From Leucobacter komagatae (GTDB taxonomy: Bacteria > Actinomycetota > Actinomycetes > Actinomycetales > Microbacteriaceae): a DNA stretch of 64,000 bases. Below the pieces are notes generated by a model that saw nothing but the letters and a program-made list of their open reading frames with translations, was not told the DNA's origin and did no database searches. The translations under genes and the position numbers were made by a program. Shown here piece by piece: positions 14,681 through 49,034 of the stretch. Numbering within the stretch: position 1 is the stretch's first letter; every line of letters begins with the position of its first letter. The stretch lies in assembly GCF_000834055.1 (NCBI RefSeq), contig NZ_JXSQ01000007.1, positions 62,001 to 126,000 on the forward strand, given 5' to 3'.

Positions 14681-14723
14681 GGCGCGGTGCGCTCGCTGTG
14701 CCACAGGGCTGAGGACATGACGG

Positions 14724-32032: not shown

Positions 32033-33061
32033 CTACACGAGTGAGGAGAGTCCGTACGACATGAGCCGAAGCTCGGAGCCGTCCTGACGCGTAATCACGC
32101 GGTCCCTTTCTGGCAAACGCTGAAAACCAAGTCGGTCATACAGGCGCCACGCGGCTTCCATCATGGGGCTCGTTTCGAGCACCAGTTGCCCAGCCCCGCG
32201 GATGCGCGCGAGCCGCAAGCTGTGCAGCGTCAGCACGGCACCAATGCCTCTGCCGCGGGCAGTCTGCGCGACGCCGAGCAGCCGAATGTCCATGTCGTCT
32301 GCTCGCGCAACCCCCGTGAGCTGCTCGCCGGGTCGCGGCGTCGTCACCGTCCCGAGGAGCTCCCCGGTTTCGGTGTCTTCCGCCACCCACACCTGGTGAA
32401 GCTCAACGCGCGCAGCGACATCAGCAATATCCGCGAGGTACGACTCGTCGAGGTGCGGATAGTCGTCCCGGTACGCAGCGAGCACGAGGGCACTCACCGC
32501 GGCAATCTCGGTCTCGCGAATGAGGCGCACCCGAACATCGGATCGCTCCTGCAACCCGTATCGGTAGGTGAGCGAATCGCCGTAGCCCGAGGCAGAACGT
32601 GCGGCGTCGAAGTCAACCGTCCGCTCGAACCCAAGCCGTTCATAGAGGTGCTGCGCCGGGTTCCGAACGCCGGTGTCGAGCCTCAGCGCCTGCGCGCCCC
32701 ACTGCAGCGCTTCCTCGAGCCCGCCACGGACAAGCGCAGCACCGATCCTCTTCCCCTGCGCCGCGGGAGACACGGCGACGAGCCGAAGCTCAGCCTCGCC
32801 GGGCTGCGCGAGCTTCGCATGCGAGCTTTCGCTGCGCAGCACCGAAGCCACACCAAGGACCCGGTCCCCCTGCGCGGCAACGATCACTCGGCCGTCAGCG
32901 TGCCGCCCGGCGGTGTCACTCACCGAACGCTCCCACGCCTGGTTGCCCGCGAGCTCGGCAGCGTACACCCCCGCCCCATACGCTGCGCGGAGCAGGTCGA
33001 CCTCTTCCTGGTGTTCCTCAGTTCGAATCGGCCGGATCATGATGGGGAGCTCAGAAGTCAC
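32033..33061 (-). CDS. Tandem GNAT-domain acetyltransferase
   Basis: A 342-residue protein with two GNAT domains. The first has the acetyl-CoA motif AVSPAAQGKRIGAALVRGGL and LYERLGFERT. The second has GVAQTARGRGIGAVLTLHSL and LYDRLGFQRLPERD. Both retain the R/Q-x-x-G-x-G/A loop. Tandem GNATs act on amines, antibiotics or mycothiol-like precursors, and the substrate is unknown here. The start at GTG 33061 is supported by TAGAAT exactly six bases upstream, so it is probably a leaderless, separately transcribed gene although it lies just behind the surface-protein operon. ATG 33040 is an alternative start. Confidence 0.85.
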   Translation of the reverse strand: MTSELPIMIRPIRTEEHQEEVDLLRAAYGAGVYAAELAGNQAWERSVSDTAGRHADGRVIVAAQGDRVLGVASVLRSESSHAKLAQPGEAELRLVAVSPAAQGKRIGAALVRGGLEEALQWGAQALRLDTGVRNPAQHLYERLGFERTVDFDAARSASGYGDSLTYRYGLQERSDVRVRLIRETEIAAVSALVLAAYRDDYPHLDESYLADIADVAARVELHQVWVAEDTETGELLGTVTTPRPGEQLTGVARADDMDIRLLGVAQTARGRGIGAVLTLHSLRLARIRGAGQLVLETSPMMEAAWRLYDRLGFQRLPERDRVITRQDGSELRLMSYGLSSLV

Positions 33062-33067
33062 CCAGTA

Positions 33068-33073
33068 ATTCTA
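33068..33073 (-). promoter_or_regulatory. Predicted -10 element of the GNAT gene (leaderless)
   Basis: TAGAAT, six bases, then GTG 33061 in the minus direction. The strongest match of this type in the window. Confidence 0.55.
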
Positions 33074-33111
33074 GGGCTGTGCGGCAACCCATCGCTCGCG
33101 GGGAGCACGGG

Positions 33112-34812
33112 TCAACCAACGTAGACGCCCCCGGAGGGGCCTACCCGTGTCGCGTCGCAGTATCGAAAGGAGAGCTGCCAAGCACCTGCGCCGGGTCGTT
33201 GGAGCACAACGTCGCGGCTACCGGCCGCATCAAGCTGGCCCTGCCAGGAGAAGCCGGCGTCATCGAATAGGCACACCTGAGCACCGGGAACCCCCGCAAC
33301 ATTGAATGCCACACCCGCCGTTGAGTCATTCGCCTGCAGACGCGTAACCGTCGGAAGTGTCAACGTGAAACTCACACTCGGTGAACGGCGCACCTCGTGA
33401 TCGCGTGTTTGGCTCACGAAGACGGAGTGCGTCCCCACCGTGAGCCCCAAGCTTCCGAGGTCAGCAGACCATGCGCCGTCGGACGACACGTCCACGGCGA
33501 TCTCGATCCCCGAGACAGCCAACATGAGCGTCCGCGCCGGATCCGCAGCGCCCCGCACCACGGGAGCAAAGGAACCGTCGATCGGTCCACTGAGTTCAAC
33601 GGTCGGCCAAATATCTGGCGCCGTTTGGGCGAGCTCGCCGGCCTCAACCCCGCCCCCAGCAGCTGGCGCGCGCTCGGTTTGCGCTGCGTCCGACTCCGGC
33701 CGTTCGTCGTCGCCAGGTGGCGCCGTGCTGCTCTCAGTATCTGGCGCCGGTTCTTTCACCTCACGTGGCACCGCGGGCTCAGAGGTCGGTTGACTCGGAG
33801 GGTTAGCTGGGGCCTCGGGAACAGTTGCAGAGGTGTACTGCAGGAGCCCAGCAACCACCGATACGACCACCACCCCGCTCACCAGCATCGCCGCGACGCG
33901 AAGGGGCTCGCCCTGACCTTGAAACACCACCTCTTTCGCCCGCTCCCGCGCTCGGGAGAGCACCCCAACGTTGGACGCCGCGATGGCTTTGAGGCTCAGA
34001 TCGGTTGCGAATACACTCCCACCGACGAGCGGAAGCAGCGCGAGTGCAATACCAAACACCGCGTTCTCCTGCCGCAGCTCTGTCTCGCGAGCGCGGCATG
34101 CGCGGCACTCAGAAAGGTGCTCCCGAATGTGCTGGCGTTTAACCTTCGTCCAGCCACCGCGAACGTAGCGGGGAAGATCCTTGGCAACCTTCACGTCGTC
34201 TTTCGCTGGCTCCAGCGCAAAGCGCGCAGATAGCCATGCCTCTCGCAACCCCTCTTTCGCTCGCCGATACAGCTGAGTCGTCGAGTTCGGGCTGAGACCG
34301 AGGCTCACAGCGACTTCTGCTCGCGGCCTACCTTCCACATCGAGCATCCACAGCACCTGCCGCCAGCGTTCCGGAAGTTGCTCGAAAGCGCGCCGAATAT
34401 CGCGTACCGCCTCCTCGTGTTCGATCTTCCCGGTCTCGTCGTCAATCGGTTCTTCCTGAAGGTCGACGCCGGTGGCCACTCGCCCGAGCTTCCGATGGGA
34501 TCGGGCCGCAAGATTTCGGACTGTCGCGAGAAGGTACCCTCTGAAGCTGCCCTGTGGGCCGTCGCCCTGTTGCAGCTTGTCCCAGATCGCTTCAAACGCG
34601 TCAGACGCTATGTCTTCGGCGTCTGCATGGGCGAATGGGCGCGCGACCGACACCGCAAGCGTCCGATACCGCAGCCATAGCTCACCGTACGCAGCACGGT
34701 CGCCAGTGCGGGCAAGTTCGAGCAGCCCGCCGTCATCCTGTTGTTCCTGCCCTAACTCGAAGGGGACAGTTGATGCTGTGTGTTCCACTCGCTGAATTCC
34801 ACCACCACTCAC
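33112..34812 (-). CDS. ECF sigma factor fused to zinc-finger anti-sigma, membrane and extracellular domains
   Basis: A 566-residue fusion. Sigma region 2 lies at about residues 30-105 (AEDIASDAFEAIWDKLQ) and region 4 at about 135-190 (FEQLPERWRQVLWML, then AEVAVSLGLSPNSTTQLYRR). Residues 228-245 hold the anti-sigma zinc motif H-x3-C-x2-C (REHLSECRACRA). Two hydrophobic helices follow (about 252-270 and 310-331), then a Pro/Glu-rich linker and a C-terminal beta-rich domain, probably outside the cell. The sigma part is thus tethered to the membrane with a built-in sensor. The layout recalls actinobacterial ECF groups with membrane-linked C-terminal extensions. The GTG start overlaps the FKBP stop by four bases. 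Confidence 0.87.
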   Translation of the reverse strand: MSGGGIQRVEHTASTVPFELGQEQQDDGGLLELARTGDRAAYGELWLRYRTLAVSVARPFAHADAEDIASDAFEAIWDKLQQGDGPQGSFRGYLLATVRNLAARSHRKLGRVATGVDLQEEPIDDETGKIEHEEAVRDIRRAFEQLPERWRQVLWMLDVEGRPRAEVAVSLGLSPNSTTQLYRRAKEGLREAWLSARFALEPAKDDVKVAKDLPRYVRGGWTKVKRQHIREHLSECRACRARETELRQENAVFGIALALLPLVGGSVFATDLSLKAIAASNVGVLSRARERAKEVVFQGQGEPLRVAAMLVSGVVVVSVVAGLLQYTSATVPEAPANPPSQPTSEPAVPREVKEPAPDTESSTAPPGDDERPESDAAQTERAPAAGGGVEAGELAQTAPDIWPTVELSGPIDGSFAPVVRGAADPARTLMLAVSGIEIAVDVSSDGAWSADLGSLGLTVGTHSVFVSQTRDHEVRRSPSVSFTLTLPTVTRLQANDSTAGVAFNVAGVPGAQVCLFDDAGFSWQGQLDAAGSRDVVLQRPGAGAWQLSFRYCDATRVGPSGGVYVG

Positions 34813-35795
34813 TCTGCTGGGTGTGCTGCGCCCAGAATGTCGATGACGAATACCATCACATCGTCTCCCGCATGCCCCATCTGGGCAAGGGCTGTCTCAC
34901 CGTAGCCATCGGCAGCCGGAACGAGAATCATCACCTGCGACCCGACGCGCTGCCCTTCGAGGCCCTTGGAGAGCCCGGGAATCATCCCAGTCGTGATGTA
35001 GTCCGTGGGATCACCCGCCCACGTCGATTCAAATTCCTCGCCGGTGCGCCAGATAGTGCCGGTCGACCGGAGGTAGACCCTGTCACCCGTGCGCACCTCT
35101 TCACCCTCGCCCGCAACGAGTGTTGCGGTCTGAACACTGTCGGGTGCCGGCGCGCCCTCCGGGATCGTCACCGTGGGCTTGCCAGATTCTGAGATATCCA
35201 CCGCGGGGAATGAGGCAGGCGGCTCAGCGCGTTCACCCTCGGCGCGTTCCAGGAGATCTTCTTTGGTGATCGTCCCTGGGATGCCAGGCACGGCCTGCTG
35301 CAGGTCAATCACGACCAGCAGTGAGCTCTCTTCCGCGAGTCCGGGGACTCCGGCGGCGAGCACCCTGCCCTCACCGTAGACATCTCCTGCTGGGAGCACC
35401 GCGGCAATCCGATCCCCAACAGTCGCGCAAGAAATGGCGCGCATGATCCACTCGCTGCTTGTGTCGCTGTGGCTCAGCCGGGCCGACTCAGCAGATATCC
35501 GCTCGCCGTCCTCTCCGTTGAACACCGACACAACCGATTGGACAGAGTCGCCAGCTTTGAGCTGCTCCCCTCCGCCCTCCACGAGCACGCTACGCTGCAT
35601 CGACTTCACCCTTTCGGGCGCATCGGAGGTCAGGGCGAGGTCCAGCGAACCGAAGGTGCCAGCAACTTCGACCGCTTTGCTCTGCTTACCTGCCGGAGCG
35701 CACTGCGGTTCAGCACCGCCCACACCTGAGCATGCAGCAAGCCCGGCAATAGTGAGGGCGAGCACGGGGATAACCGCGAGCGAACGCTGATTCAT
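34809..35795 (-). CDS. FKBP-type peptidyl-prolyl isomerase lipoprotein
   Basis: A 328-residue extracytoplasmic foldase with a lipoprotein signal (lipobox LAAC, Cys at about residue 22). Two FKBP-like domains follow: a divergent one (about 80-170, LKAGDSVQSVVSVFNGEDG) and a better conserved C-terminal one (about 235-325) with VRTGDRVYLRSTGTIWRTGE, EFESTW, PGLSKGLEGQRVGSQVMILV and GYGE. The AAGGAG ribosome site overlaps the signal-peptidase stop. The context suggests it helps fold the Pro-rich repetitive exported proteins of the same operon. Confidence 0.9.
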   Translation of the reverse strand: MNQRSLAVIPVLALTIAGLAACSGVGGAEPQCAPAGKQSKAVEVAGTFGSLDLALTSDAPERVKSMQRSVLVEGGGEQLKAGDSVQSVVSVFNGEDGERISAESARLSHSDTSSEWIMRAISCATVGDRIAAVLPAGDVYGEGRVLAAGVPGLAEESSLLVVIDLQQAVPGIPGTITKEDLLERAEGERAEPPASFPAVDISESGKPTVTIPEGAPAPDSVQTATLVAGEGEEVRTGDRVYLRSTGTIWRTGEEFESTWAGDPTDYITTGMIPGLSKGLEGQRVGSQVMILVPAADGYGETALAQMGHAGDDVMVFVIDILGAAHPAE

Positions 35796-35803
35796 GAGTC
35801 TCC

Positions 35804-36196
35804 TTAGAAGAGGGTGAAAACGTATCTGTGGACCTGGGACACCGTGTACGGGGCAGGGTCCGGGTTTGGGTTGGCGTCGCCCTGCAGCCAGAGCACTCGC
35901 TCGCCGCCAGCATCTTCCATCCGAACGATGCGATGGGTGACGGTCCTCTCACTGCCGCGACGCTGGGTGGTGACGATGTCGCCTACGACCAGGTCGTCTG
36001 CCGCTGTCGACCGGGTGAGAATGGTCTCTCCGGCCACAATCGTCGGCTCCATCGAGCCGCTGGTGATGCGATACACGCGCACTCCAAGCAGCTGCGCTGC
36101 CAGGGAGGCGACAATGAGCACGCCAACGAGGGCGGCGATCCCGATGACCGCCACCCTCGCTGCGCGCCCCGCTTTAGGGCGCGCTACACGTGTCAC
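35804..36196 (-). CDS. Signal peptidase I, SipW/ER-type
   Basis: About 130 residues, with GTG 36196 chosen as start (MTRVARPKAGRAARV). The frame is also open to 36268, but that would overlap the RCC1 gene by 95 bases. A membrane helix (about 14-38) is followed by the catalytic SGSMEPTI (Ser48), the strand motif GDIVTTQRR, and TVTHRIV with His88 where bacterial-type enzymes have Lys. His in this place defines the SipW/archaeal/ER class. C-terminal LQGDANPNPDP is box E. Such enzymes often process a few dedicated substrates encoded nearby, here most likely the products of the two upstream genes. Confidence 0.9.
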   Translation of the reverse strand: MTRVARPKAGRAARVAVIGIAALVGVLIVASLAAQLLGVRVYRITSGSMEPTIVAGETILTRSTAADDLVVGDIVTTQRRGSERTVTHRIVRMEDAGGERVLWLQGDANPNPDPAPYTVSQVHRYVFTLF

Positions 36197-38180
36197 AGTT
36201 TTCAAGCTCGTCCGGGTTCGTCGTGGTGATGTGCGACACAGCGTCTCTGTCCGAGTTGCCCGTGCCACTCACACTCATGGTCGCTTCGGCACGAAGCGTC
36301 ACGCCCGCGGGTGTGCCGCTCTTCACGGCGACCGCAAACTCGATCTTTACCTGGCTGCGTTTCGGTACGGAGCCAGACCATTGCACTTTGCCACCGTTCA
36401 GGGTTCCTCGAACCGGCTCGTCATTTCCGACGGTGACTGCGATGCTCTCGGGGTCGACGTCGACATCGCTCAAGAACGAGCTGATATCGACCGCCACCGA
36501 ATAGTTCGCCGGATCGGCGAACGTATTGCGTGCGACTGCCTGGTAGCGGATCGTCTGCCCGGCCATCACGGCGCTGCCGGTGAACGGGTTGGAGTTCAAC
36601 GAAATCGTCTGGTAGCGGCCGACGTTTTGGATCCCCTCGATCACCGCGGGTGCCCACACGTAGAGCCCGTTCGGGGTTCCGCCAGGAACGACCGACGCTA
36701 CGTTTCCGGATTTGTCGAGACACGCAGCGTAGGTGTAGCCACCACACGCAGCGCCGCCGCCGTTCTCTCCCCAGGACAGGATCGTGCCGTCATCGAGCAC
36801 CACCGAGGCAGAGTCCTTGTTCCCGCCGATCATCAGCGCCTTGCGCTTGGAGCTGTCCTGGGCTGGGTCCCACACCTTGCCGGTGAGATGGTCCGAGTTC
36901 GCCGGCGTGCGACTACCGTAGTTCAGGCTGAAGGCCCCACCCCACAGGCGGTTTCCGTACGCCCAAGCGGTTCCGTCGTCGGTGATGTACTGCGTAGACC
37001 CAAACCGGGCGGTTGCTTCCATGACGTTCGTCGCCTTCAGCGTCGGAAGCGTGCCGTTTGTCGAGGTGTCGCGGAGCCCATCGTTGCCGGAGGAGTTGTT
37101 CTCCTCGCTGCCCCAAGCGTAAAGGTTGCCCTGCTTCGTGAGCAGGTGGCCGTGCGCGTATCCCCCTCCAAGGGATTTCACGCCTTCCGCTTTGGCGAAC
37201 GCCGTAATCTCGGGGACCAGGATTGGAGTGCTGCAACGGAAGTCGCTATACACAGCGCTCACGGTGGTGCACCCCGCGGCGTTGAGGTTCGTGTTGGACG
37301 CGCCAGCACCGTTCCTAAACGACCGCCCCCAGAAATAGACATTGTCCTCGTCATCGACGGCGTAGTACCCCTCGTACCCGGAGTACACGACGACAATGTT
37401 CGGCTGCGCGCCGCCCGGCCACTTGGTGACCTGGGTAGCGACGCGCAGGGCTGCCCCGCCGTTGCCCGTAGTGCCCTGTCCGCGCTGGGAGAGCGCGTTG
37501 TCTCCGACCGTCCAGATGGTCCCGTCAGATTTCGTATACGCGGCTCCGTACTCGACGGACGCGACGCTGGTTACGTCCGTGTCCATAATCGCGTCGGACC
37601 AGTTGCTCGTCACGTTCTGCGGCGTGGTGCCTGCGGGAACGATCCGCCCGGGGTCGCCGAAGCCCTTCCCGAACATGTAGAGGCCACCGTTGTTCTGTCC
37701 CCATCCGAAGAGGTTGCCGTGCTCGTCGATCGCGTAGTTCGCGTAGGCCGAAGAGGCCATCGCCTTGATGTTCTCGAGCGCCTTGAACTGATTCGGTTTG
37801 TGCTCGTTAAAGGCGGCGCCGGTCGTGTAGTCAATGCCGTTTGTCCCGCCTCCCTGCCCCGCAGAGCTGACGCCGGGGCCAGTGTTGCCGTAGTAGCCCC
37901 AGATCCAGAGGTTGCCAGCGACATCGAGCACCTGCATGGTGTCGAGCGCAAAGGATGGAACGACGGACGCGAGGGGGCTCGTCGGGGGTACGGACACCCC
38001 GTTCGCCTGGGCGTATAGACCGTCTGAGTACCCAGCCGAGCTCTCTGAGATCAGTGGGGAAGCTGTCGCAACCAGCAGCGCCGCCCCGAGCAATCCGATC
38101 CCACCGGTGATGGCACGCTTCGCGCTACGTCGCCTCCGCTGCGAGCGCAGCGGAACGTTCTCTTCTACCGAGACGCCCAT
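36174..38180 (-). CDS. Exported RCC1-repeat beta-propeller protein
   Basis: A 668-residue secreted protein. A long N-terminal signal (Arg-rich region, helix about 25-43, then ISESSAGYSDGLYAQANGV) resembles SipW-dependent signals in having a small-residue tail beyond the helix. RCC1-type propeller blades follow at about residues 85-520, seen in repeated cores such as NLWIWGYYGNTG, NLFGWGQNNGGLYMFG, VYFWGRSFRNGAG, NLYAWGSEENNSSGNDG and ILSWGENGGG. The C-terminus (about 540-650) is a DUF11-like beta domain related to the repeats of the giant protein. ATG 38180 overlaps the preceding stop (TAATG). Likely a binding or scaffold component of the surface structure. Confidence 0.87.
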   Translation of the reverse strand: MGVSVEENVPLRSQRRRRSAKRAITGGIGLLGAALLVATASPLISESSAGYSDGLYAQANGVSVPPTSPLASVVPSFALDTMQVLDVAGNLWIWGYYGNTGPGVSSAGQGGGTNGIDYTTGAAFNEHKPNQFKALENIKAMASSAYANYAIDEHGNLFGWGQNNGGLYMFGKGFGDPGRIVPAGTTPQNVTSNWSDAIMDTDVTSVASVEYGAAYTKSDGTIWTVGDNALSQRGQGTTGNGGAALRVATQVTKWPGGAQPNIVVVYSGYEGYYAVDDEDNVYFWGRSFRNGAGASNTNLNAAGCTTVSAVYSDFRCSTPILVPEITAFAKAEGVKSLGGGYAHGHLLTKQGNLYAWGSEENNSSGNDGLRDTSTNGTLPTLKATNVMEATARFGSTQYITDDGTAWAYGNRLWGGAFSLNYGSRTPANSDHLTGKVWDPAQDSSKRKALMIGGNKDSASVVLDDGTILSWGENGGGAACGGYTYAACLDKSGNVASVVPGGTPNGLYVWAPAVIEGIQNVGRYQTISLNSNPFTGSAVMAGQTIRYQAVARNTFADPANYSVAVDISSFLSDVDVDPESIAVTVGNDEPVRGTLNGGKVQWSGSVPKRSQVKIEFAVAVKSGTPAGVTLRAEATMSVSGTGNSDRDAVSHITTTNPDELENCDTCSAP

Positions 38181-38905
38181 TAGAAGCTCTCTCCTTCAAT
38201 ACGGATGCCGAAATCGGTGTCAACACCGGAATATGCGGCAAGTTTCGTTTTCGTTGTGTCATCCGGGTCGTAGGCGAAGGTCGCCTTCACGGTGAACTCC
38301 GCCTCGTCGCCGGCCAGCAGCACACGCGATATGTCGCCGCGCACCGTGCCGTCGCCGTTCGGGTCGTTGTTTTCATCGGCGCCGAGCATCTCGTTATCAA
38401 TGACGACCGTGCCCTCGTCGTCGGTAACGGTGAAGCTGAGCTGGGTGAAGAGATCCGGGTAGATCTCGTCCTTGCCCGGCGCAATCCGATACTTCACCTT
38501 CGCGGATGAGGGATCGCAGATGACAAAGAACAGCTGTCCCGTTCCTGCGCCCTCGTTCCGGACAACGACAGTCCACTCCATGCCACCGCGGATGAGATCC
38601 TCTGCGGTGCTCGCCGATTCGAGCACGAGCGGATCGTCACGCGTCGCATCAACAAAGCCCGAGGACTCGCTTGCGACCTGAATGTCGTACTTGGTGAACT
38701 GCGAGGGGACCTGGGTCGCGGCCCCCTGGCCGAAGAGTCCTCCGGCCCAGGCGGCGAGGCCGCCGATCGCGAGGACCGCGACCGAGGCGGCAGCGCCAAT
38801 GGCGACGCGCTTTCGTTGCCCCTCCCGAGGGGGTGTCGCAGGCGCGACTCCCCCCGTGGCATCGAATGTTTCCACGTGATTCTCACTTTCGAACTGGTTA
38901 GGCAA
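38180..38905 (-). CDS. Exported or membrane-anchored beta-rich protein, possible fibre subunit
   Basis: About 241 residues. Start is TTG 38905 with AGGAG seven bases upstream, inside the last codons of the giant gene. After ~33 hydrophilic residues there is one hydrophobic segment (VAIGAAASVAVLAIGGLAAW), then GQGAATQV and a beta-rich domain with WTVVVRNEGAGTGQLFFVI, FTVTDDEGTVVIDNEMLG and an Asp/Asn-rich DENNDPNGDG loop that could bind calcium. The size, fold pattern and SipW-type peptidase two genes on suggest a TasA/CamelysinN-like subunit, but no family motif proves it. A simple membrane-anchored accessory protein is the alternative. Confidence 0.65.
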   Translation of the reverse strand: MPNQFESENHVETFDATGGVAPATPPREGQRKRVAIGAAASVAVLAIGGLAAWAGGLFGQGAATQVPSQFTKYDIQVASESSGFVDATRDDPLVLESASTAEDLIRGGMEWTVVVRNEGAGTGQLFFVICDPSSAKVKYRIAPGKDEIYPDLFTQLSFTVTDDEGTVVIDNEMLGADENNDPNGDGTVRGDISRVLLAGDEAEFTVKATFAYDPDDTTKTKLAAYSGVDTDFGIRIEGESF

Positions 38906-41900
38906 TGTCCGCTCCTTCCACGCGCGAGCGCTTGTTCCTGGCGAGCAGCAGCCCGCCGCCGAGCAGCGCAAGCAGCCCGAGGATGATGAGCGGGGCGATG
39001 TCGCCTCCGGTCATCGGGATGGTTTCTCCCGGATTCAGCGGGGTGACCGGGTTCTCCGTGACTGGCTTGTCAGGAGAGTGCGGGCTCAGAACCAGGTTCT
39101 TGAGCGTCGCAGGGGCGACCGCGGTCTCCTTGACCTGCACGGTGTAGCGGATCTCGAGGGTACTGAGGGCGGGTACAGACCCGCTCCAGGTCAGCTTCGT
39201 GCCCTTGATTTCCACCGTCGTGCCAGCTGGCGCGACCGGCTCGCCGACAAGCACCGCGTCGTCGAGCACATCAGCGAGGTCGTCCTCGAAGGAAACATCG
39301 CTGAGACCGTACGGGGTCGGGTTGCTGACCGTCACCGTGTAGTTCACTCGCTCGCCTCGGCCTACCGCTGATCCGCTCTGCGGGTCAGAGGTCTTGACGA
39401 GGTTCACCACGCCAACCGGGTTCTCCGTGACCGGTTTCTCCGGCGACTGCGGGCTTGTCACGAGGTTCCGCAACGTTGCCGGTGGCACGGCTGTCGAAGA
39501 GACAAGCACGGAGTACGTGATGGTCACGGTCTCCCCGGCGGGAACCATACCCGTCCAGCTCAGGCTCATCCCGTTGAGGTGAGCCTTCGAACCGTCCGAG
39601 ACCTTCGGCGACCCGATGAGTGATGCGTCGTCGAGGATGTCGGAGAGGTTGTCCTCAACATGCACGCCAGCAATGTCGGCATCACCCGGGTTGGTCACGG
39701 TGACCGTGTAGTCGACCGTGTCACCAGGCTTCACCGCAACGCCCGACGTCGGATTACTGCTCTTACCAAGCACGACCGTCGCAACGGGGTTCGTTGTTTC
39801 CGGGTCTACCGGGGAGTCCGGGCTCGATACGACGTTCCTGAGGACCGCCGGCGCAAACGCGTCATCGTTCACGCGCACTGAATACGTGAGAGTGACGACA
39901 TCGTTCGCAGGCACGTCTCCCGACCAAATAAGGTCAGTCCCCTCGAGCGACACCGCGCCTGAGGAGGCCACCGGGTCTCCGACCAGCGTCGCGTTGTCGA
40001 ACACGTCGCTCAGATCATCGGTCACGGTTGCGCCCTCGAGCGGAGCGGCGGCATCGTTTGCGATGAGCACGGTGTACTCGACGGTGTCGCCTGGTTTCAC
40101 TGCGACCCCGTCACCTGGCACCGAGGTCTTCGCGAGACGGAGCGTCCCGACCGGGTTCACAACCTCGGGTATTTCGGGCGAATCCGGGCTCGTAACGATG
40201 TTCCGGAGCACCTGTGGGGCGGTCGCATCCTTGTTCACGGTCACCACATAGGTGATCACGATCTCGGAGTCAGCCGGAACGGTCCCGTTCCAGCTAATGC
40301 GATCGGCGGCGACAGTCGCGGTTGAGCCGTCCGATACAGCGACGCTCTCCCGATCCAACACCGCGTTGTCGACAATGTCTGCGAGATCATCCGTCACGCT
40401 GACGTTGTGGATCGGAGCCGCGGTCGTGTTCCGCACCGTGACCGAGTAGGTGACGTCGTCACCTGGGCGCACGGCCACACCGTCGCCGGGCACCGTTGAC
40501 TTGCTCAGCGAGACCGTCCCGACGGGGTTTTCCGTGTCGGGCTCGTCGGGCGAGTTCGGGCTGGTCACGAGGTTGCGCAGCACCGCTGGGGCGAGCGCGT
40601 CCTTGTTCACGGTGACGCTGTAGGTGAGCGTCACCGAGCCGTTGGCTGGCACGTCGCCGCGCCACTGCAGTTGCTGGTTACCGTCGATCGTCACTGGCGT
40701 CCCATCTGAGGCCTCAGCCTCGCCGACGAGCGTCGCGTTGTCCAGGACGTCACGCAGGTCATCGGAGATGCTCGCACCAGCGATATCAACGTTGCTCGTG
40801 TTCTGAGCGGTAACGGTGTAGGTGACCGTCTCACCCGGCTTCACAGCTGTCCCGGACGCCGGGGTGACGTCCTTCGTTATCCGCAGCGTGCCGACCGGGT
40901 TTTCGGTTCCAGGCCCCTCCTCGTCATCGACAAAGAGTTTGTTGCTCAGCACGGCTGTTCCGTCGGACTTCGGATCGGTGAGCACGGTGTAACTGATCGT
41001 CACGGTGTGCCCGGCCGGGATCTCGTGGTCCCAACTGATGACCTGGTTCTCGAACGCGACGGCTGGCACCTCGCCACCGGCGGTCCACCGCGCCTCTGGC
41101 CCGGTCACGAGCTGAGCTGCGCTCAGCACGTCACTCAGGTCATCTCGGAGCGAGACCCGCTCGTCGCTCGTCATCCCGTTCATTGCGGTGAGCTCATAGG
41201 TGAGCTGCTGGCCCGGTGCCACGATGGTGCCGGAGCCGACCGGGTTGCCTCGCTCGTCGAGCAGTCGCTTCGCGGTCACAATGTCCCCGACAGGGTTCTC
41301 CGTTTCGGGAATGATCGGCGAATCGGGGCTCACAACGCGGTTGCGAAGGACATCACCCTGCGAAGCGCTCTCCTTCACCTTGACGGTGTAGGTGATCGCT
41401 ACGATCTGCTTCGCGGCGAGGTCGCCGCTCCACACGATCTCTTGCGTGTCAGCGTCGTAACGCACGTCACCGCTATAGCTTTCTGGACCGCCGACGAGGT
41501 CGGCCGCGCCGAGCACTCCGGCGAGCTGATCGACGACCCGAACGTCCGCAATAGCAGCGTCGACCGGGTTCTTTACGGTGACCGTGTATGTCACGGACTC
41601 ACCCGGTTTCACGGCTGTGCCGTCGCCGACGTCTGAGACCTTCTCAAGCACGACGGTGCCAACCGGGTTCTCGGTCGACGGGGTGTCATCCGAGTCGGGG
41701 CTCGTGACGAGGTTTCGCAGCACCGCCGGTGCCGTGACCTCGTCGAGCACGCGAACGAGATAGGTGATCTCGATCGAGCCGTTTGCCGGGACGGTTCCCG
41801 TCCACGAGAGCTCATTCCCTGTCACCGTGGCAGACGATCCATCGGAGACCTGCGGGGTGCCCTCAAGCACCGCGGAGCTCAGCACCTGCGACAGGTTGTC

Positions 41901-44900
41901 GACGACGCGCACACCTTCCTGCTCCGAACCCGAGGGGTTCGTCACGGTGATCGTGTATGCGACGGTGCTGCCCGGTTTGACGGTCTCACCGCTCTTGGGA
42001 ACCGAGCTCTTCGCAAGGTTCACGGTGCCGACTGGGTTCTCAATACCCGGGGTGTTCGGCGAGTCAGGACTCGTGACCGCGTTCCGGATCTTCGCGGGCG
42101 CCTCGGCGGTGTCCTTCACCGTAACCGAGTAGGTGATCGTCACGGCACCATTCGCGGGAACCGAACCGGTCCAGCGCATGGTTTCGCCGTCGAGCGATAC
42201 GTCTCCTGCCGAGGGCACAGCGTCGTCGTTCCAGCTCGCGTTTCCGAGGACGTCAGAGAGATCATCCGAAACGGTGACGTCGTCGAGCGCGGCAGCGCTC
42301 GGGTTCGTGATCGTGACGGAGTACGTGACCTTCTCTCCCGGTTTGACGACGGTGCCGTCGCCCTTGTCGTTGATCTTTGAGAGCAGCAGCGACCCAACCG
42401 GGTTCTCAGTCTCAGGCTCGTCGGTCGAGTGCGGGCTCGTCACGACGTTTCTGAGCGTCGCCGGAGCGAGCGCGTCATCGTTCACTGTCACCTTGTAGGT
42501 GATGACGATCTCACCGTGGCTCGGCACAGTACCGTTCCACGAGATCGAGCTGCCGACGAGGGCGGCCGTTGAACCGTCCGAAACCGCGATGTCACGCTCA
42601 AGGAGCGTCGCGTCGTCGAGGATGTCGGACACGTCGTCCGTGATGCTCACGAGCGTCGCGTCGGTGTCCGTCGTGTTTTTCGCGGTGATCGTGTAGAACA
42701 CCTCCTGGCCGGGGCGCACGCTCGATCCGGAAGCCGGGGAGACCGTCTTCTCTAGGCCGATCGTGGTCACCGGGTGCTTGACGCTCGGCTCATCTGGTGA
42801 GTCCGGGCTCGTGACAAGGTTGCGCAGCACGTTGCCGCTCTCCGCATCGCTGTTCACGACAACGGTGTAGGAGATCCGTGCTTCCTGACCAGCTGCGAGG
42901 TCGCCAATCCATGTGATCGTTTGCGCATCCACATCGAGCGATGCGGTGCCTCCTCCTTCGATCACCTCGGGCTCTCCCTGCATGCTGGCGTAGGGAAGCA
43001 CGCGGGCGAGGTCATCTACCGCTGTGACCCCGGTGAGATCGACGCCCGAGGTGTTGCGCACCGTCACCGTGTAGGACACGGCGTCGCCAGGCTTCACGCC
43101 AGCGCCCGCTGCCGGGTCCGACATCTTCACGAGCTCAACGGAGCCAATGGGGTTGACCGTCTCAGGTGTGACGGGCGAGTCGGGGCTCGTCACCACATTC
43201 CGGAGCTGCTGCTCCCCCTGCACATCATCATTCACCTTGACGGTGTAGCGGATCTCGACGGTGCCGCCTGACGCGACATCGCCTGTCCAGGTGAGCGTAT
43301 TCTGCTTGAGCTCAAGCGCGCCGCCACCCGAAACGATCTCCGCATTGCCCTGCAGGGTTGCGTTGTCGAGAACGTCGCTCAGGTCATCAGCCACGGAGAC
43401 ATCCTTGAGATCGGCTCCACTGTCGTTCGTGATCTTCACGGTGTAGGTGATCTCGTCTCCGATGCGGACGGTGGATCCGGCTGGCACGTCGGTCGATTTT
43501 TCAAGGCCGAGCGAGCCAATCGGGTTTTCCGTCTCCGGCTTTTCGGGCGAATCGGGGCTCCAGGCCACGTTTCGCAAGGTCACCGGCGGCGTAATGGTGT
43601 CATTCACCTTCACGACATAGGTGATCGTGACGTTCTGCCCGGCCGGGACATCTCCCTTCCAGTGGAGCTGACCTGCGTCGCGGGTAACTTCACCCGACGA
43701 AGCGCTCGGCTCGGTTGTCACGACAGCGTGCGCAAGCACATCGTTGAGATTGTCGTAGACGTCGACGCCGTTGACGTCGACCGCGCTCGGATTCTTCACC
43801 GTCACCGTGTACGTGATCTCGCTACCAGGCTTAGCCGGCCCGGCGGGCGACACTACGGACTGCTTCTCAAGACCGACGACACCAACGGGGGTCTCGGTCT
43901 CCGGTTCCTCGGGAGAAACCGGGCTTGCGACATGGTTCCGCAGCACTTCGCCGGCCGCGACGTCTTCGTTCACCACAACGGTGTACGAGATCGTAACGGT
44001 TGCGCCGTTGGCGACATCACCCGTCCAGCTCAGCGTTTCCCCGACGATTTCAGCGTTGCCGCCCCCGACCACATTCAGGGAGCCTGGTACGAGCGTCGCG
44101 TTGTCGAAGACATCGGAAAGGTTGTCCGTGAGTGATGCACCCGCAACGTCAACACCTGAGGTGTTGGTCACGGTCACCGTGTAGGTGAGCGGCTCACCGC
44201 GGTTGACCGCTGTGCCAGCGGGAACATCGGTGCTCTTCGCGAGGGTCACTGCGCCGATCGGGTGTTCCGTCTCCGGTGTGATCGGTGAATCAGGGCTGCT
44301 CACGACATTGCGTAGCGCACCCTCGAAGACTCCCTCGTTCACGCGCACCGAGTAGCTGACAAGCACTTCCTCGCGGGGTGCGAGGTCGCCCGCCCACGTG
44401 ATCGTGGTGCCATCGATCGTCGCGCCACCGTCGGGGCCTGACTCGAGGGTCGCGCTGTCGAGCACGTCTGAGAGGTCATCGGTCACAACGACACCGGTCA
44501 GCGGCGCATCCGCAGCGTTCCTGATGCTCACCTGGTAGGTGACGATGTCGCCTACCTTTACAGCGGTCCCCGCCCCTGGTGTCGATGTCTTCGCGAGCTC
44601 GATGCTTCCAACAGGGTGTTCGGTGACGGGCGGATCCTCCGGATCGTTTGTCATGTCGGTACTGGTCACAACGTTCTTCAGTACGGCAGGGGCCGTCGCG
44701 TCGTCATTCACCGTAGCGACGTAGCTCAGCTCCACCGAGCTGTTCCCTGCGACGTCGCCGACCCACACGAGCTCGTTGCCCGAGAGTGTCATCCCGGCTG
44801 GTAGCGATGCGGTGTCGATCGTCGCGTTCGCGAGCACGCTCGTCACGTCGTCAACGACCCGGACGTCCCGAATCACCCTGGGGGTGTCGTTCGTCACGGT

Positions 44901-47900
44901 GACCGTGTAGGTGATTGCCTCACCCGGTCGCACAGTGCTACCCGACGTGGGATCCGAGGTCTTCGCGAGCGTCACCTGGCCCCGCGGATTATCCGTCGGG
45001 TGTGTGGTTTCCGGGCTCGTCGGCGAATCGGGGCTCGTCACGACGTTGCGGAGGACAGCGCCCTCAGGCGAGATCACCTCGTTGACCTTGACCTGGTAGG
45101 TGAAGGTGATGGCGGCCCCGGCGGCGATGCCACCGGTCCACGAGATCGTCTTCGCTACCGGGTCGAAGACACCGGGCGCGACCGGCTCAATGAGGGTCGC
45201 GTTCCCCAGCACTCCGCTGAGGTCGTCGATCACCGTCACGTCGTCGAAGTCGACAGCCGAGGGGTTCTTGGCGACCACGGTGTACGTGATCACGTCACCC
45301 GATTGCACCGTTGCGCCCGATGCCGGCGTCGAGACCTTCTCGAGATCGATGGTGCGCACCGGGTGTTCGGTTGTCGGCGGGTTCTCCGGGTCGTTCTCCA
45401 TGTCCGGGCTCGTCACGACGTTTCCGATGACCGCTGGTGCCGTGGCGTCCGCGTTCACGGTGACCTCGTAGCTGAGCGTGACCGTCTCTTGCGCGGGCAC
45501 GGTCCCCGTCCAGCGGATCGTGTTGCCGTCGAGCACGGCGCCTGCTGGCAGGCTCGCCGCAACAACCGTCGCCGGGCCGCTCACGACGTCCTCAAGTACG
45601 ACATCTTCCATGTCGAGCTCGGTGTCGTTCGTAGCACTCACCGTGTAGGTGATGGTGGATCCTGGCAGCACCTGGCTGCCAGATGCGGGGTCAGAGTTCT
45701 TCTGCAACTCGACCTTGCCCCTCGGGTTTTCCACCTCGTGCGTTGTCCCGGGCGGATCCTCGCGCACCTGGGCGCTCGCCGCGTGGTTGCCGATCCGCTG
45801 ACCGTTCGGAGCGCTGTCGAGCACGCGCACGGAATAGGTAATCGTCACGATCTCTCCCGCAGCGACATCACCCTGCCAGGTGAGGATCGAGCCGGCTACC
45901 GTTGCACCCTCGCTCGGGGTGCCAACGAGCTTCGCGTACGGAAGCACGGCGGAGAGATCATCGGTCACCGTAACGTTTTGCTTCGCAGCTACTGCGTCCT
46001 TGTTCGTCAGGGTGAGCGTGTAGTCGATCGTGTCGCCTGGCTTCACAATCGTGCCGCTGGCGGGGGTGGCCGACTTCTCGAGGGTGAGTTCGTCCTCGAC
46101 TGGGATCACGGTCGTCGGCCCCTCTGGGTCAACGTTTTCGGGAGACTCCACGCCGTTCACGAGCGCCTCGCCACCCGCAAGCGGGTAGAGCTCTTCAGCG
46201 GTCTTTGTCGTCACCTCGTAGGTGATCGTGACCGTGGCACCCGCCGGCACGTCGCCGCGCCAGCTCAGCAGCGGCTCCGCATAGCTCGCCTCCGGTGCTG
46301 CAAGGTCGTTGCCGTCCCTGTCCTGCATCGAGACGACGATGTTCTCGGGGGATCCCGCGAACTGCAGCAGCTCTGTCAGGTCATCAGTCACGCTCGCGTC
46401 TGCAAGCGGAAGCCCGCCGACGTTCCGCGCGGTGACGGTGTAGCTCACGCGCTCGCCGGGCGAGGCAAGCCCGTTCTCGTCCTCATCGGTGGCAGTCTTT
46501 TCGAGCAGCAGCGCACCGTCGATGGGTGTTGTAACCGTCAGGCCACCGGTCCACTTCTCGCGATCGGCAGCGTCGGCAGCGTCACGGACACTCGGAACCT
46601 CGGTGGTCTCGTCGCCGACGCGCTTCGTGGTTGTGACGGTGTTCACGAGAGCAGCAACCGGCTCAGTGAACTCCTGCACGTCCTCGTCGTCTGCGACGAC
46701 CTCGGACTTCACGGTCGCTGTGTACGTAATCGTGAACGCCTCGCCCGCGGCGAGGTCACCGGTCCAGGTGATCTTGTCGCCGTCGAGCGTCGCGGTGCCC
46801 GTGGAGGCCACAACGTCACTCACCTCGGCGTCGTCGATGACGTTGCTGAGGTCATCGGTGAGCGTGAAGTTTTCGAGGGCTGCGCCGGTCGTGTTCTCCA
46901 GTGAGATTGTGTACTCGGCGACATTACGCCCCTCGATCGCACTCGGGGAAGCATTGCCAGGTGCCAGAGAGGTTGTCTTCGTCAGCGTTACGGCGTTGAT
47001 TCCCGTAAACACGTACACGTTTCCGCTCGCGCTCACGACTGCCCTGTGGCGCTGGACACCGTCGTCACCGACCGCTGTGCCCGCGCGGACCGCGCCGCCG
47101 AGGATACCGAACGTGCCGAACATGGATTCGCCGCCGTCCTTGGTCGCGAGCGGCTTGATCGCCGTCGTCGAGGCTGGCCCGCTGACCTCAAAGAGCTGCA
47201 CGGTCCCCGTATTCGGGGTGCCGTCGAGGTTCAGCGCACCAACGAACAGCTCCGAAGTCGTCTCGTTGAGATCCAGCGTCGAACCGAAGTAGTACTGGTG
47301 CGGGGCTGCCGAGAGGCTCTTACCCGCGAGCGTGCCGTCACCGTTATATACGTAGACGGCTCCCTGAGTCGTTGTGGTGTCCGTGGCAATATCGCCCGGC
47401 TCGGTTCCTTCGAACGACACCTCCGAGGGCGAGCCCGCGACGATGCGACCGTCCGCCGTAATGGCGATCGCACGCCCAAGGCCAGCCCAGGAGCCGCCCT
47501 CGAGCGCAGGCGGAAACGCAACATTCGCCTGGTTGACGTCAGGCGAAACAGTGAAGTTCAGTGAGCCGCTCGCGATGTTCCATGAGCTGATCTGGCCCAC
47601 CTGGTAGGCGTTCCCGTCTCCCGCGATTTCCCTGTGCTGCGCGGCAGACACGACTGCGAGATCACCGGCTGTTGCGACGATCTGTCCGTAGACGTCGTCG
47701 ACGTTCACGCCACCGGTCGGAAGCAGCATGGGTGCCGCGACGGCGTCCGCACCGACGATGGCTGAGACCGAGACCGAGTACGCTGCCCCGGCGTTCGCCT
47801 TACCGTCCACCCGAGAGTTCGGGGCACCAATCACGACGTGTGATCCGGAGAGACTCACGGACTCGCCAAACGAGCGCACCTCGGCCACGCGGGGGTCACC

Positions 47901-48449
47901 TGCTGGAGTGATTTTCGTTGGAGTGGTCGTCCAATCGCCATCGACCTCCGTGTAGACGTAGACCTCCTGCGAGTACCGGGCACCTACGATGGCGATCCCG
48001 GCGGCCTCATCAATGTCTACCGAGTAGCCAAAGCCCTTGGCATCGGCTGGGGTCACGAGTTGGGTCTCGGCGAAGTCTCCCGCGCCGGGCCCTTCCCAGG
48101 TACGGACCGTTACGAGCCCGCTACCGGGCTGCTTGGTCCCACGCTGCTGCGTGAAGATCACGGAGTCACCGCTGAGCTCGACGTCGTATCCGGTGCGTGC
48201 GGTATCGGAGCCGGCAACATCAGCTCCGAACTGGGCGACCTCGGTGTACCGATCCGAGTTCGTGGCGTCGAAGGGAGTGATGTCCGCCGTCGTCGTAGCG
48301 GCCATCGCCGCGCCAGGGGCAGCGATGAGCATTCCCCCAAACAGCGCGGCTGTCGCAACGGACGCGATCCCGACTCTCATTCGCTCCCACACGCTCTGCG
48401 CCCGGGGGCGCTCATGTGTGTCTCTCACGTGTTTCACGTTTCTCCTCAT
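38898..48449 (-). CDS. Giant cell-surface protein with 21 DUF11-like repeats
   Basis: About 3,183 residues. N-terminal signal peptide with cleavage after AAPGAAMA (residue 50). Then a ~430-residue region with propeller/FG-GAP-like repeats (GYSVDIDEAAGIAIVGARYS, FGESVSLSGSHVVIGAPNS). Then 21 repeats of ~120-126 residues, each running L-x-K-x-S-x-P-x-x-G-x-x-V-K-P-G-D, YTVTVTN, DDLSDVLDNA, WTGDVPA and LRNVVTSPDSP. The C-terminus IPMTGGDIAPLIILG, a membrane helix and RNKRSR form an LPXTG-like sorting signal. I start at ATG 48449; GTG 48437, just behind AGGAGA, is possible. Upstream open frame to 48785 lacks signal character. Probably a long stalk adhesin. Confidence 0.92.
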   Translation of the reverse strand: MRRNVKHVRDTHERPRAQSVWERMRVGIASVATAALFGGMLIAAPGAAMAATTTADITPFDATNSDRYTEVAQFGADVAGSDTARTGYDVELSGDSVIFTQQRGTKQPGSGLVTVRTWEGPGAGDFAETQLVTPADAKGFGYSVDIDEAAGIAIVGARYSQEVYVYTEVDGDWTTTPTKITPAGDPRVAEVRSFGESVSLSGSHVVIGAPNSRVDGKANAGAAYSVSVSAIVGADAVAAPMLLPTGGVNVDDVYGQIVATAGDLAVVSAAQHREIAGDGNAYQVGQISSWNIASGSLNFTVSPDVNQANVAFPPALEGGSWAGLGRAIAITADGRIVAGSPSEVSFEGTEPGDIATDTTTTQGAVYVYNGDGTLAGKSLSAAPHQYYFGSTLDLNETTSELFVGALNLDGTPNTGTVQLFEVSGPASTTAIKPLATKDGGESMFGTFGILGGAVRAGTAVGDDGVQRHRAVVSASGNVYVFTGINAVTLTKTTSLAPGNASPSAIEGRNVAEYTISLENTTGAALENFTLTDDLSNVIDDAEVSDVVASTGTATLDGDKITWTGDLAAGEAFTITYTATVKSEVVADDEDVQEFTEPVAALVNTVTTTKRVGDETTEVPSVRDAADAADREKWTGGLTVTTPIDGALLLEKTATDEDENGLASPGERVSYTVTARNVGGLPLADASVTDDLTELLQFAGSPENIVVSMQDRDGNDLAAPEASYAEPLLSWRGDVPAGATVTITYEVTTKTAEELYPLAGGEALVNGVESPENVDPEGPTTVIPVEDELTLEKSATPASGTIVKPGDTIDYTLTLTNKDAVAAKQNVTVTDDLSAVLPYAKLVGTPSEGATVAGSILTWQGDVAAGEIVTITYSVRVLDSAPNGQRIGNHAASAQVREDPPGTTHEVENPRGKVELQKNSDPASGSQVLPGSTITYTVSATNDTELDMEDVVLEDVVSGPATVVAASLPAGAVLDGNTIRWTGTVPAQETVTLSYEVTVNADATAPAVIGNVVTSPDMENDPENPPTTEHPVRTIDLEKVSTPASGATVQSGDVITYTVVAKNPSAVDFDDVTVIDDLSGVLGNATLIEPVAPGVFDPVAKTISWTGGIAAGAAITFTYQVKVNEVISPEGAVLRNVVTSPDSPTSPETTHPTDNPRGQVTLAKTSDPTSGSTVRPGEAITYTVTVTNDTPRVIRDVRVVDDVTSVLANATIDTASLPAGMTLSGNELVWVGDVAGNSSVELSYVATVNDDATAPAVLKNVVTSTDMTNDPEDPPVTEHPVGSIELAKTSTPGAGTAVKVGDIVTYQVSIRNAADAPLTGVVVTDDLSDVLDSATLESGPDGGATIDGTTITWAGDLAPREEVLVSYSVRVNEGVFEGALRNVVSSPDSPITPETEHPIGAVTLAKSTDVPAGTAVNRGEPLTYTVTVTNTSGVDVAGASLTDNLSDVFDNATLVPGSLNVVGGGNAEIVGETLSWTGDVANGATVTISYTVVVNEDVAAGEVLRNHVASPVSPEEPETETPVGVVGLEKQSVVSPAGPAKPGSEITYTVTVKNPSAVDVNGVDVYDNLNDVLAHAVVTTEPSASSGEVTRDAGQLHWKGDVPAGQNVTITYVVKVNDTITPPVTLRNVAWSPDSPEKPETENPIGSLGLEKSTDVPAGSTVRIGDEITYTVKITNDSGADLKDVSVADDLSDVLDNATLQGNAEIVSGGGALELKQNTLTWTGDVASGGTVEIRYTVKVNDDVQGEQQLRNVVTSPDSPVTPETVNPIGSVELVKMSDPAAGAGVKPGDAVSYTVTVRNTSGVDLTGVTAVDDLARVLPYASMQGEPEVIEGGGTASLDVDAQTITWIGDLAAGQEARISYTVVVNSDAESGNVLRNLVTSPDSPDEPSVKHPVTTIGLEKTVSPASGSSVRPGQEVFYTITAKNTTDTDATLVSITDDVSDILDDATLLERDIAVSDGSTAALVGSSISWNGTVPSHGEIVITYKVTVNDDALAPATLRNVVTSPHSTDEPETENPVGSLLLSKINDKGDGTVVKPGEKVTYSVTITNPSAAALDDVTVSDDLSDVLGNASWNDDAVPSAGDVSLDGETMRWTGSVPANGAVTITYSVTVKDTAEAPAKIRNAVTSPDSPNTPGIENPVGTVNLAKSSVPKSGETVKPGSTVAYTITVTNPSGSEQEGVRVVDNLSQVLSSAVLEGTPQVSDGSSATVTGNELSWTGTVPANGSIEITYLVRVLDEVTAPAVLRNLVTSPDSDDTPSTENPVGTVVLEKVSDVGDGTAVKPGESVTYTVTVKNPVDAAIADVRVVDQLAGVLGAADLVGGPESYSGDVRYDADTQEIVWSGDLAAKQIVAITYTVKVKESASQGDVLRNRVVSPDSPIIPETENPVGDIVTAKRLLDERGNPVGSGTIVAPGQQLTYELTAMNGMTSDERVSLRDDLSDVLSAAQLVTGPEARWTAGGEVPAVAFENQVISWDHEIPAGHTVTISYTVLTDPKSDGTAVLSNKLFVDDEEGPGTENPVGTLRITKDVTPASGTAVKPGETVTYTVTAQNTSNVDIAGASISDDLRDVLDNATLVGEAEASDGTPVTIDGNQQLQWRGDVPANGSVTLTYSVTVNKDALAPAVLRNLVTSPNSPDEPDTENPVGTVSLSKSTVPGDGVAVRPGDDVTYSVTVRNTTAAPIHNVSVTDDLADIVDNAVLDRESVAVSDGSTATVAADRISWNGTVPADSEIVITYVVTVNKDATAPQVLRNIVTSPDSPEIPEVVNPVGTLRLAKTSVPGDGVAVKPGDTVEYTVLIANDAAAPLEGATVTDDLSDVFDNATLVGDPVASSGAVSLEGTDLIWSGDVPANDVVTLTYSVRVNDDAFAPAVLRNVVSSPDSPVDPETTNPVATVVLGKSSNPTSGVAVKPGDTVDYTVTVTNPGDADIAGVHVEDNLSDILDDASLIGSPKVSDGSKAHLNGMSLSWTGMVPAGETVTITYSVLVSSTAVPPATLRNLVTSPQSPEKPVTENPVGVVNLVKTSDPQSGSAVGRGERVNYTVTVSNPTPYGLSDVSFEDDLADVLDDAVLVGEPVAPAGTTVEIKGTKLTWSGSVPALSTLEIRYTVQVKETAVAPATLKNLVLSPHSPDKPVTENPVTPLNPGETIPMTGGDIAPLIILGLLALLGGGLLLARNKRSRVEGADIA
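39048..46998 (-). repeat. Array of 21 degenerate ~360-400-bp coding repeats
   Basis: The DNA encoding the DUF11-like repeats of the giant protein. Every unit carries recognisable blocks (CCCGGG/CTTCAC for KPG, GAC/GTC-rich for DDLSDVLD, TCCGGGCTC for SPDSP). Units are divergent rather than identical, indicating an old array. Confidence 0.9.
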
Positions 48450-48991
48450 AACCCCGTCTACTTCAGTCGATGAAGGCTGGTCTTTCAGTTCGAACTTCAC
48501 CTCGCTTAGGCGCGCCCTGTTGGGCACGACTGCACGGATCCCGTGCATGGCGGGGCTCAGCCAGTTCTGGCAGCTAATGACTAGGTTCCAGTTGCCCCAC
48601 AAAAGTGACGCTGGCTTACGAAATTCTTTTTTTTCGCTTCGCCTCCCGTCGTAACCACCCGAGGTGGCTCGGGTCAGTCGGCGCGGTTCGATTGCAGTAG
48701 CGCAAGCGCGCTCGCGCCTCTCACACGTGCGCTGACCGCGGACCGCAGCTATAGCGCGGGTCGCGCAGCGAAATACTGCCGCCAAGGCGCTGGCAGTTCA
48801 TCCAGGGCGTCGTCGGCTCAATATCCCTACGGAATACCACCCTTTTCGCAGAAGACAGACTCTCTCTACGGTGCAGCGTAGGCAGACTCCTGTCCCACTG
48901 AGGACGCCTGGAGTATTAAATCTTTGGAGATTGAGTAGCGATTTTGTCGAAGTTGAGCAGTTCTTATGACTTAGTGAGAGGAGACACAAAA
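48450..48991. promoter_or_regulatory. Leader/promoter region of the surface-protein operon
   Basis: About 540 bases without a convincing gene between the giant gene and the terminator at 48992. An open frame in the giant's phase reaches 48785, but it lacks a ribosome site and has non-protein-like composition (Arg/Ala/Cys-rich). The region holds a T8 run at 48627-48634, GC-rich inverted segments, and an AT-rich patch at 48912-48925 (GTATTAAATCTTTG). The promoter must lie here; no hexamer pair is convincing, as expected if an ECF sigma factor is used. Confidence 0.45.
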
Positions 48992-49019
48992 AACCCCAGG
49001 CGCCCTAGCGCCTGGGGTT
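48992..49019 (-). terminator. Rho-independent terminator of the 329-residue membrane protein gene
   Basis: A 12-bp perfect GC-rich stem (48992-49003 with 49008-49019), 4-base loop, then TTTT in the minus direction. It lies 15 bases after the stop codon at 49035. Confidence 0.85.
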
Positions 49020-49034
49020 CTTCGTTGCTCGCGG

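Follow-up and report, generated by a model that had tools for sequence, protein, structure and literature searches.

A putative SipW-type surface-fibre module with isopeptide repeats, an RCC1 propeller and a fused ECF sigma factor in Leucobacter komagatae

Fibres of the SipW/TasA type have been worked out in Bacillus. Both the tapA-sipW-tasA operon of Bacillus subtilis, which is under SinR control, and the sipW-calY operon of Bacillus cereus place a SipW-type peptidase gene beside genes for exported proteins and, as described in the available sections of the sources, come without an RCC1 propeller, an isopeptide giant or a fused ECF sigma factor (PMC9674648, PMC10151520). Tandem repeats with Lys, Asp and Asn residues characterize a different group, the CLIPPER (DUF11) and DUF7927 isopeptide stalk adhesins, for which the accessible part of one paper gives a DUF7927 example with Lys125, Asp161 and Asn225 (spacings of 36 and 64) and a solved DUF11 domain with Lys715, Asp748 and Asn806 (PMC12617251). 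Finally, the fused sigma factors of ECF48, ECF52 and ECF53, SCO4117 of Streptomyces among them, join an ECF sigma factor to zinc-finger-like and hydrophobic segments, a proline-rich linker and a C-terminal domain (PMC5826349, PMC8999054, both as excerpted), and fused ECF proteins of such build are expected to act by proteolytic release, according to the excerpted review (PMC8999054).

The locus described here lies in a window, meaning the whole stretch of DNA that was analysed, of 64,000 nucleotides from L. komagatae. Like the Bacillus operons, it has a SipW-type peptidase adjoining exported proteins. Its giant protein shares the tandem Lys, Asp and Asn repeats of the stalk adhesins, without visible difference in the repeats themselves, but sits in a SipW/sigma operon. 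Its sigma fusion resembles ECF48/52/53 as excerpted in its build, with a putative zinc-finger-like segment, whereas the C-terminal part is Ig/FnIII-like in a predicted model rather than a carbohydrate-binding module and the gene stands within a surface-protein operon. In the accessible portion of the open-licence PMC literature, no description of a SipW/RCC1/DUF11/sigma operon was found. The features of the locus are as follows.

48996..49008, minus strand: terminator-like stem that marks the left border of the unit, separating the giant gene from its upstream neighbour
38898..48449, minus strand: giant surface protein of 3183 aa with a Sec-type signal (by eye), an FG-GAP region, 21 DUF7927/DUF11 (CLIPPER-type) Ig repeats and an IPMTGG tail
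38180..38905, minus strand: small exported protein, 241 aa from a TTG start, with a predicted TasA-like fold and related to other cargo encoded beside SipW
36174..38180, minus strand: RCC1-type beta-propeller protein; SipW-like signal read by eye as SAGYSD; DUF7927 domain at the C-terminal end, lacking the isopeptide triad
35804..36196, minus strand: SipW/ER-type signal peptidase with a GTG start at 36196; TIGR02228 68.8 bits (cut-off 51.85)
34809..35795, minus strand: FKBP lipoprotein, accessory; PF00254 (FKBP_C) 42.1 bits (cut-off 21.1)
33112..34812, minus strand: ECF sigma factor fusion with a zf-HC2-like segment, hydrophobic segments, a Pro-rich linker and two Ig/FnIII-like domains

The sequence-only reading had presented the six genes as co-directional, in this order and closely joined, and all of this was confirmed on the minus strand. 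The small protein starts at a TTG (38905) within the giant gene, which runs to the end of its stop codon at 38898; the small-protein and RCC1 genes meet in a TAATG at 38180; the GTG start of the peptidase overlaps the RCC1 gene by 23 bases (36196 to 36174); 8 bases separate the peptidase stop from the FKBP ATG; and the FKBP and sigma genes overlap by the 4 bases GTGA. Longer alternative starts for the small protein (38971) and the peptidase (36268) are present in the list of open reading frames. A scan of the interval 32900-39100 found no terminator-like stem on the minus strand, and no sigma-70-type promoter was found in 48300-49200. The GC content of the module is 63.8%, against 66.3% in the rest of the window.

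The order giant, small protein, RCC1, SipW and sigma is also found in Leucobacter luti RF6 (L103) and Mycetocola saprophilus NRRL B-24119 (L104), and overlaps of 8 bases and 1 base at the first two junctions (giant/small protein/RCC1) are common to all three modules. Among the modules, the exported proteins share 64-72% identity, versus 40-52% for the peptidase and sigma factor. The core comprises five genes, because neither of the other two modules has the FKBP gene. Relatives of the window's FKBP lie elsewhere in all 12 genomes searched, and the window's own genome has a second copy with 39% identity to that of the module; the proposal of FKBP as a core member of the module was therefore rejected. 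One conserved module, as first suggested, thus stands for five genes that recur in the same order in two more genomes, the FKBP lipoprotein being outside it. We give a probability of about 0.6 to the locus being a co-inherited five-gene surface-fibre module with an accessory FKBP, that is, a SipW/TasA-type fibre operon with an isopeptide rod and a tethered ECF sigma factor.

A conserved co-occurrence across Microbacteriaceae in general, which had also been proposed, does not hold. Indeed, the small protein (E up to 1e-6) and the RCC1 protein (E up to 1e-30) each occur in only 2 of 398 family genomes, in searches that scored up to six and up to three candidates per genome; the two are the window's own genome and G098, which carries the same module genes as M. 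saprophilus NRRL B-24119. Nine more genomes in this draw are from the window's genus, and they have neither the small protein nor the module RCC1; for the small protein, a search of 394 genomes from the class yielded the window's own alone. Furthermore, a species-genome collection was scanned with two RCC1 heptapeptides from a two-sequence RCC1 alignment, a search that finds close relatives only because just these two were used: 58 stretches matched one of them and eight loci were confirmed, two with the module and six with distant RCC1 proteins and no match for the remaining module proteins. As to a plasmid origin, a comparison of the RCC1 protein with 72,556 plasmids gave nothing closer than distant, partial similarity in 9 records, each with less than 80% coverage.

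The surroundings of the three copies are all different. In the window the module is flanked by a 365-aa gene beside purL on one side and a GNAT gene on the other, in L. luti by genes read as nusG and rplK, and in Mycetocola by a regulator gene on one side and SDR/MerR-type genes on the other (by eye). Because the same order is kept at three different chromosomal sites in three genomes, the module looks like a real transferable unit. At the window-type site, examined in eight relatives' regions, the 365-aa gene is followed by a siderophore-binding gene with no GNAT match between in five and by a GNAT gene, only the second half of which was matched, in two; in L. luti (L127:2064-10403) a different protein of 2779 aa with an export-type N-terminus lies between the purL-side gene and the GNAT gene. 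From these occupants, the module is most simply taken as an insertion here, and the site is apparently one that is reused for surface genes. The L. luti occupant would also suit the view that unrelated surface genes came together by chance at an insertion hotspot and that the sigma fusion acts elsewhere, as would the finding that relatives of the sigma fusion occur in 59 of 150 family genomes (E 1e-20, 88 matches) and seldom beside SipW. However, the conservation of gene order at three unlinked sites with different flanks argues against such a gathering, which we hold to be improbable.

Two further observations concern the region of rplK, a gene whose copies in the window's genome and L. luti are 99% identical. 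A tblastn search of the 2.7 kb from the contig start to rplK in the window's genome (L136:1-2717) gave no nusG, and in another genome, G376 (L137:1751-3397), a 548-aa open reading frame lies between nusG and rplK, the junction that holds the module in L. luti.

The peptidase is of the sigpep_I_arch type (TIGR02228) and scores only 46.2, below 190, on the Bacillus SipW equivalog model NF046067. Its small exported neighbour is predicted to have a TasA-like fold. A low-confidence AlphaFold2 model from three sequences (mean pLDDT 54.5, 74 residues at or above 70) was compared with 350,542 chains by Foldseek, and the best match, the only one with E at or below 1e-3, was the TasA fibre 8aur (E 9.2e-4). 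In VIA, the same structure aligned with a Z of 8.0 (rmsd 3.2, 141 aligned), followed by TasA 5of2 (Z 7.4) and the cannula protein 9h8b (Z 7.3), the latter tied with the unrelated enzyme 7fe0; the fold match alone is not proof, since these Z values are near the level where unrelated folds appear. The small protein also differs from TasA in that it matches no Pfam family and that its profile finds no TasA among PDB sequences; the two matches returned there, to an unrelated human protein (best E 0.016), are taken as chance.

Independently of the fold model, profile comparison indicates that the small protein is related to other SipW-neighbour cargo. Using hhalign, its profile aligned with that of eight exported proteins of SipW loci (from contig C36 of the window's genome and from two other genomes) at 94.7% probability (E 5.9e-8, 145 columns), while controls with the sigma C-terminal domains gave 0.2% in both comparisons. 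A weaker single-profile search against one C36 protein gave only E 0.48. TIGR04088, the curated SipW-cognate signal, matches four of the eight related cargo proteins (best E 3e-4) and neither the small protein nor the RCC1 protein of the window. The expectation that a SipW-type peptidase stands beside dedicated exported partners was upheld in that it adjoins probable cargo, one with a TasA-like fold prediction. Within the family, many SipW-type matches fall in frames of 400-800 aa from stop to stop, a length that may reflect long extensions or fusions.

The second probable cargo is the RCC1 protein, and the proximity of RCC1 and SipW genes extends beyond the module. Among 150 family genomes, 103 have SipW-type peptidases and 30 have RCC1-like proteins. 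Counting the SipW matches listed, at least 14 RCC1-SipW pairs are within 6 kb, versus 0.7 expected at random (uniform placement in 3.3 Mb genomes, those of the same genus not being independent); at least 12 of 65 RCC1 loci, the window and G098 included, are that close to SipW, as are loci in at least 10 of the 25 genomes with both, these 10 representing 8 genera. The RCC1 gene of contig C36 lies outside this count. In three of the eight regions viewed from other genomes (L150, L154 and L156), RCC1 signals read AAYTD or SAGYTD by eye, as in the module RCC1 proteins. This recurrence suggests a testable function for exported bacterial RCC1 proteins. The eight regions hold no sigma fusion (tblastn, 1e-4), and DUF7927-type repeats are without match in seven and give a single weak one in L152.

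The first reading had linked the RCC1 protein physically to the giant through a shared repeat domain. What remains of this link is a common family, the C-terminal DUF7927 domain being related to the giant's repeats (E 6e-15, three-sequence search), but it is a homology of one domain only and the Asp and Asn positions of the triad are lost. Thus, Val or Ala replaces Asp in each of the three modules and Ala stands at the Asn position in the two that align that far, the Lys position being just outside the alignment and reading Asn by extension. The RCC1 C-terminus (window 36177-36200) has a CDxC cysteine pair in all three modules.

In the giant itself, domain scans place TIGR04226/DUF11 repeats beside the FG-GAP region and 21 DUF7927 stretches (1418.7 bits, cut-off 31). 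The Lys-Asp-Asn triad is complete in 20 of 21 repeats in the window, 19 of 21 in Mycetocola and 19 of 22 in L. luti, whose giant has at least 22 repeats with an assembly gap among them. When the 64 repeats are aligned, Lys is present in 61, Asp in 64 and Asn in 61; one repeat lacks an aligned Lys in all three giants, and the other three misses are alignment rows ending before Asn, one of them at the assembly gap. In the 20 complete window repeats, the Lys-Asp spacing is 37 in 17 and 38-41 in 3, and the Asp-Asn spacing is 56-65 in 18 and 71-76 in 2. For every one of the 21 window repeats, the best Mycetocola match is the repeat in the corresponding position, with a mean identity of 64% for these pairs versus 42% among the window giant's own repeats. 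Against PDB sequences, the giant has no match at 1e-5. The tails of the three giants read IPMTGG (in the window), IPTTGS and LPITGG, each with a hydrophobic stretch and a basic end (by eye); the giant tail scores below the cut-offs of the curated anchor models NF058582 (21.6, cut-off 27) and PF00746 (12.8, cut-off 20). Sortases are present in all three module genomes (8, 2 and 5 matches in G000, G098 and G398).

An ordinary Sec-type signal and a sortase-type tail, both read by eye, are what a giant independent of the SipW cargo might carry, and the operon could then make two structures without contact, a wall-anchored isopeptide adhesin and a SipW/TasA-RCC1 fibre, both controlled by the sigma factor. 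The rarity of DUF7927-type repeats in the other RCC1-SipW regions and the lost triad positions of the RCC1 domain point the same way, yet each of the three genomes retains the overlaps of the giant, small-protein and RCC1 genes, and one domain of the RCC1 protein belongs to the repeat family of the giant. Taken together, we find two separate structures rather doubtful.

The sigma fusion has a clear ECF domain (TIGR02937, 65.9 bits, cut-off 42.9), and its zf-HC2 segment scores over the cut-off of 22.2 in L. luti (27.8) and under it in the window (16.7) and Mycetocola (15.5). No Pfam match to a carbohydrate-binding C-terminal domain, of the kind in ECF52, was found on it. The two Ig/FnIII-like domains come from a model of the C-terminal part (pLDDT 87.8), and the top Foldseek matches are adhesin segments, the Bap C region and SiiE, among many similar Ig pairs without specificity. 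The sigma copies of the other modules have 40-43% identity to that of the window, the C-terminal domains being 33-36% identical between the three. Two conserved cysteines fit an extracytoplasmic placement of the C-terminal part, which is tentative given the two hydrophobic segments that precede it. The adhesin-like matches would accord with a locus that is mainly a signalling module, in which the tethered sigma factor has the surface proteins as its ligands or shields and the building of fibres comes second; the lack of specificity of these matches and the weak conservation of the C-terminal domains count against it, and we give such a role very little credence.

Across the family, at least 4 of the 88 sigma matches are within 6 kb of SipW among the SipW matches listed (0.55 pairs expected at random), these being the window module, that of Mycetocola, contig C36 and G121; at least 7 of 88 are within 20 kb among the same matches. 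Surroundings were taken for 60 of the 88 matches, the sigma factor being found again in 58 and not in L047 and L095. Based on typed motif strings, 14 of 56 sigma loci are near an sdhA-like gene and 12 of 56 near a purU-like gene, and a sortase-type protein of at least 500 aa lies within two genes in 7 of 56 (simple pattern). With these counts, a general rule that sigma fusions stand beside SipW or giants was rejected. A shared ECF promoter upstream of the giant gene was likewise rejected, the three upstream stretches having no convincing common motif; a lenient ECF promoter search gave one match, in L. luti only, which is about chance level by a hand estimate. Elsewhere in the window's own genome, contig C14 (L097:8591-10495, 10530-15020) carries a further sigma fusion close to sdh-type genes; it diverges from a gene for a long protein that runs past the region end and is near an 890-aa sortase-type protein.

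For the five-gene surface-fibre module, we infer cleavage, assembly, anchoring and sensing as follows. SipW would cut the small TasA-like protein and the RCC1 propeller during their exit from the cell, the TasA-like subunit might polymerise by donor-strand exchange, and the propeller could cap, nucleate or present the resulting fibre. The giant would take the ordinary Sec route, become locked through some 20 isopeptide bonds within it and be fixed to the wall by one of the cell's own sortases, so as to form a rigid rod tipped by a propeller. With the Ig-like domains at its C-terminal end, the membrane-tethered sigma factor may sense either assembly or contact with a surface and, once freed by proteolysis, raise expression; the FKBP lipoprotein would aid folding in the window's strain only. 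That TasA-like fibres, RCC1 subunits and the sortase-anchored isopeptide rod form a single hybrid appendage, the assembly of which is read by the tethered sigma factor of the same operon, is a tentative extension that we regard as possible. The locus would represent a compact actinobacterial version of the SipW/TasA system, to which it adds an isopeptide rod, a tethered sigma factor of its own and, as a probable SipW cargo, an RCC1 propeller. Through its sigma fusion, the sensing of a surface fibre by the Gram-positive cell that makes it could be studied.

Related loci contain similar parts in other arrangements. Contig C36 of the window's genome (L098:4072-9280, 9317-10984) has a second SipW operon, which resembles that of the window in its SipW peptidase, RCC1-type protein, three SipW-type exported proteins and adjoining sigma fusion, and differs from it in that no DUF7927-type repeat is matched, the sigma gene is divergent and the sequences are only distantly related; it also carries a small LPXTG-type protein. 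In G121 (L049:3641-16970), a single run holds two LPLTG proteins, a sigma fusion, a DUF11-like protein, SipW-type cargo and a SipW peptidase, with two DUF7927-type matches. These two arrangements suggest that the building blocks recombine and that the module of the window is one stable combination of them.
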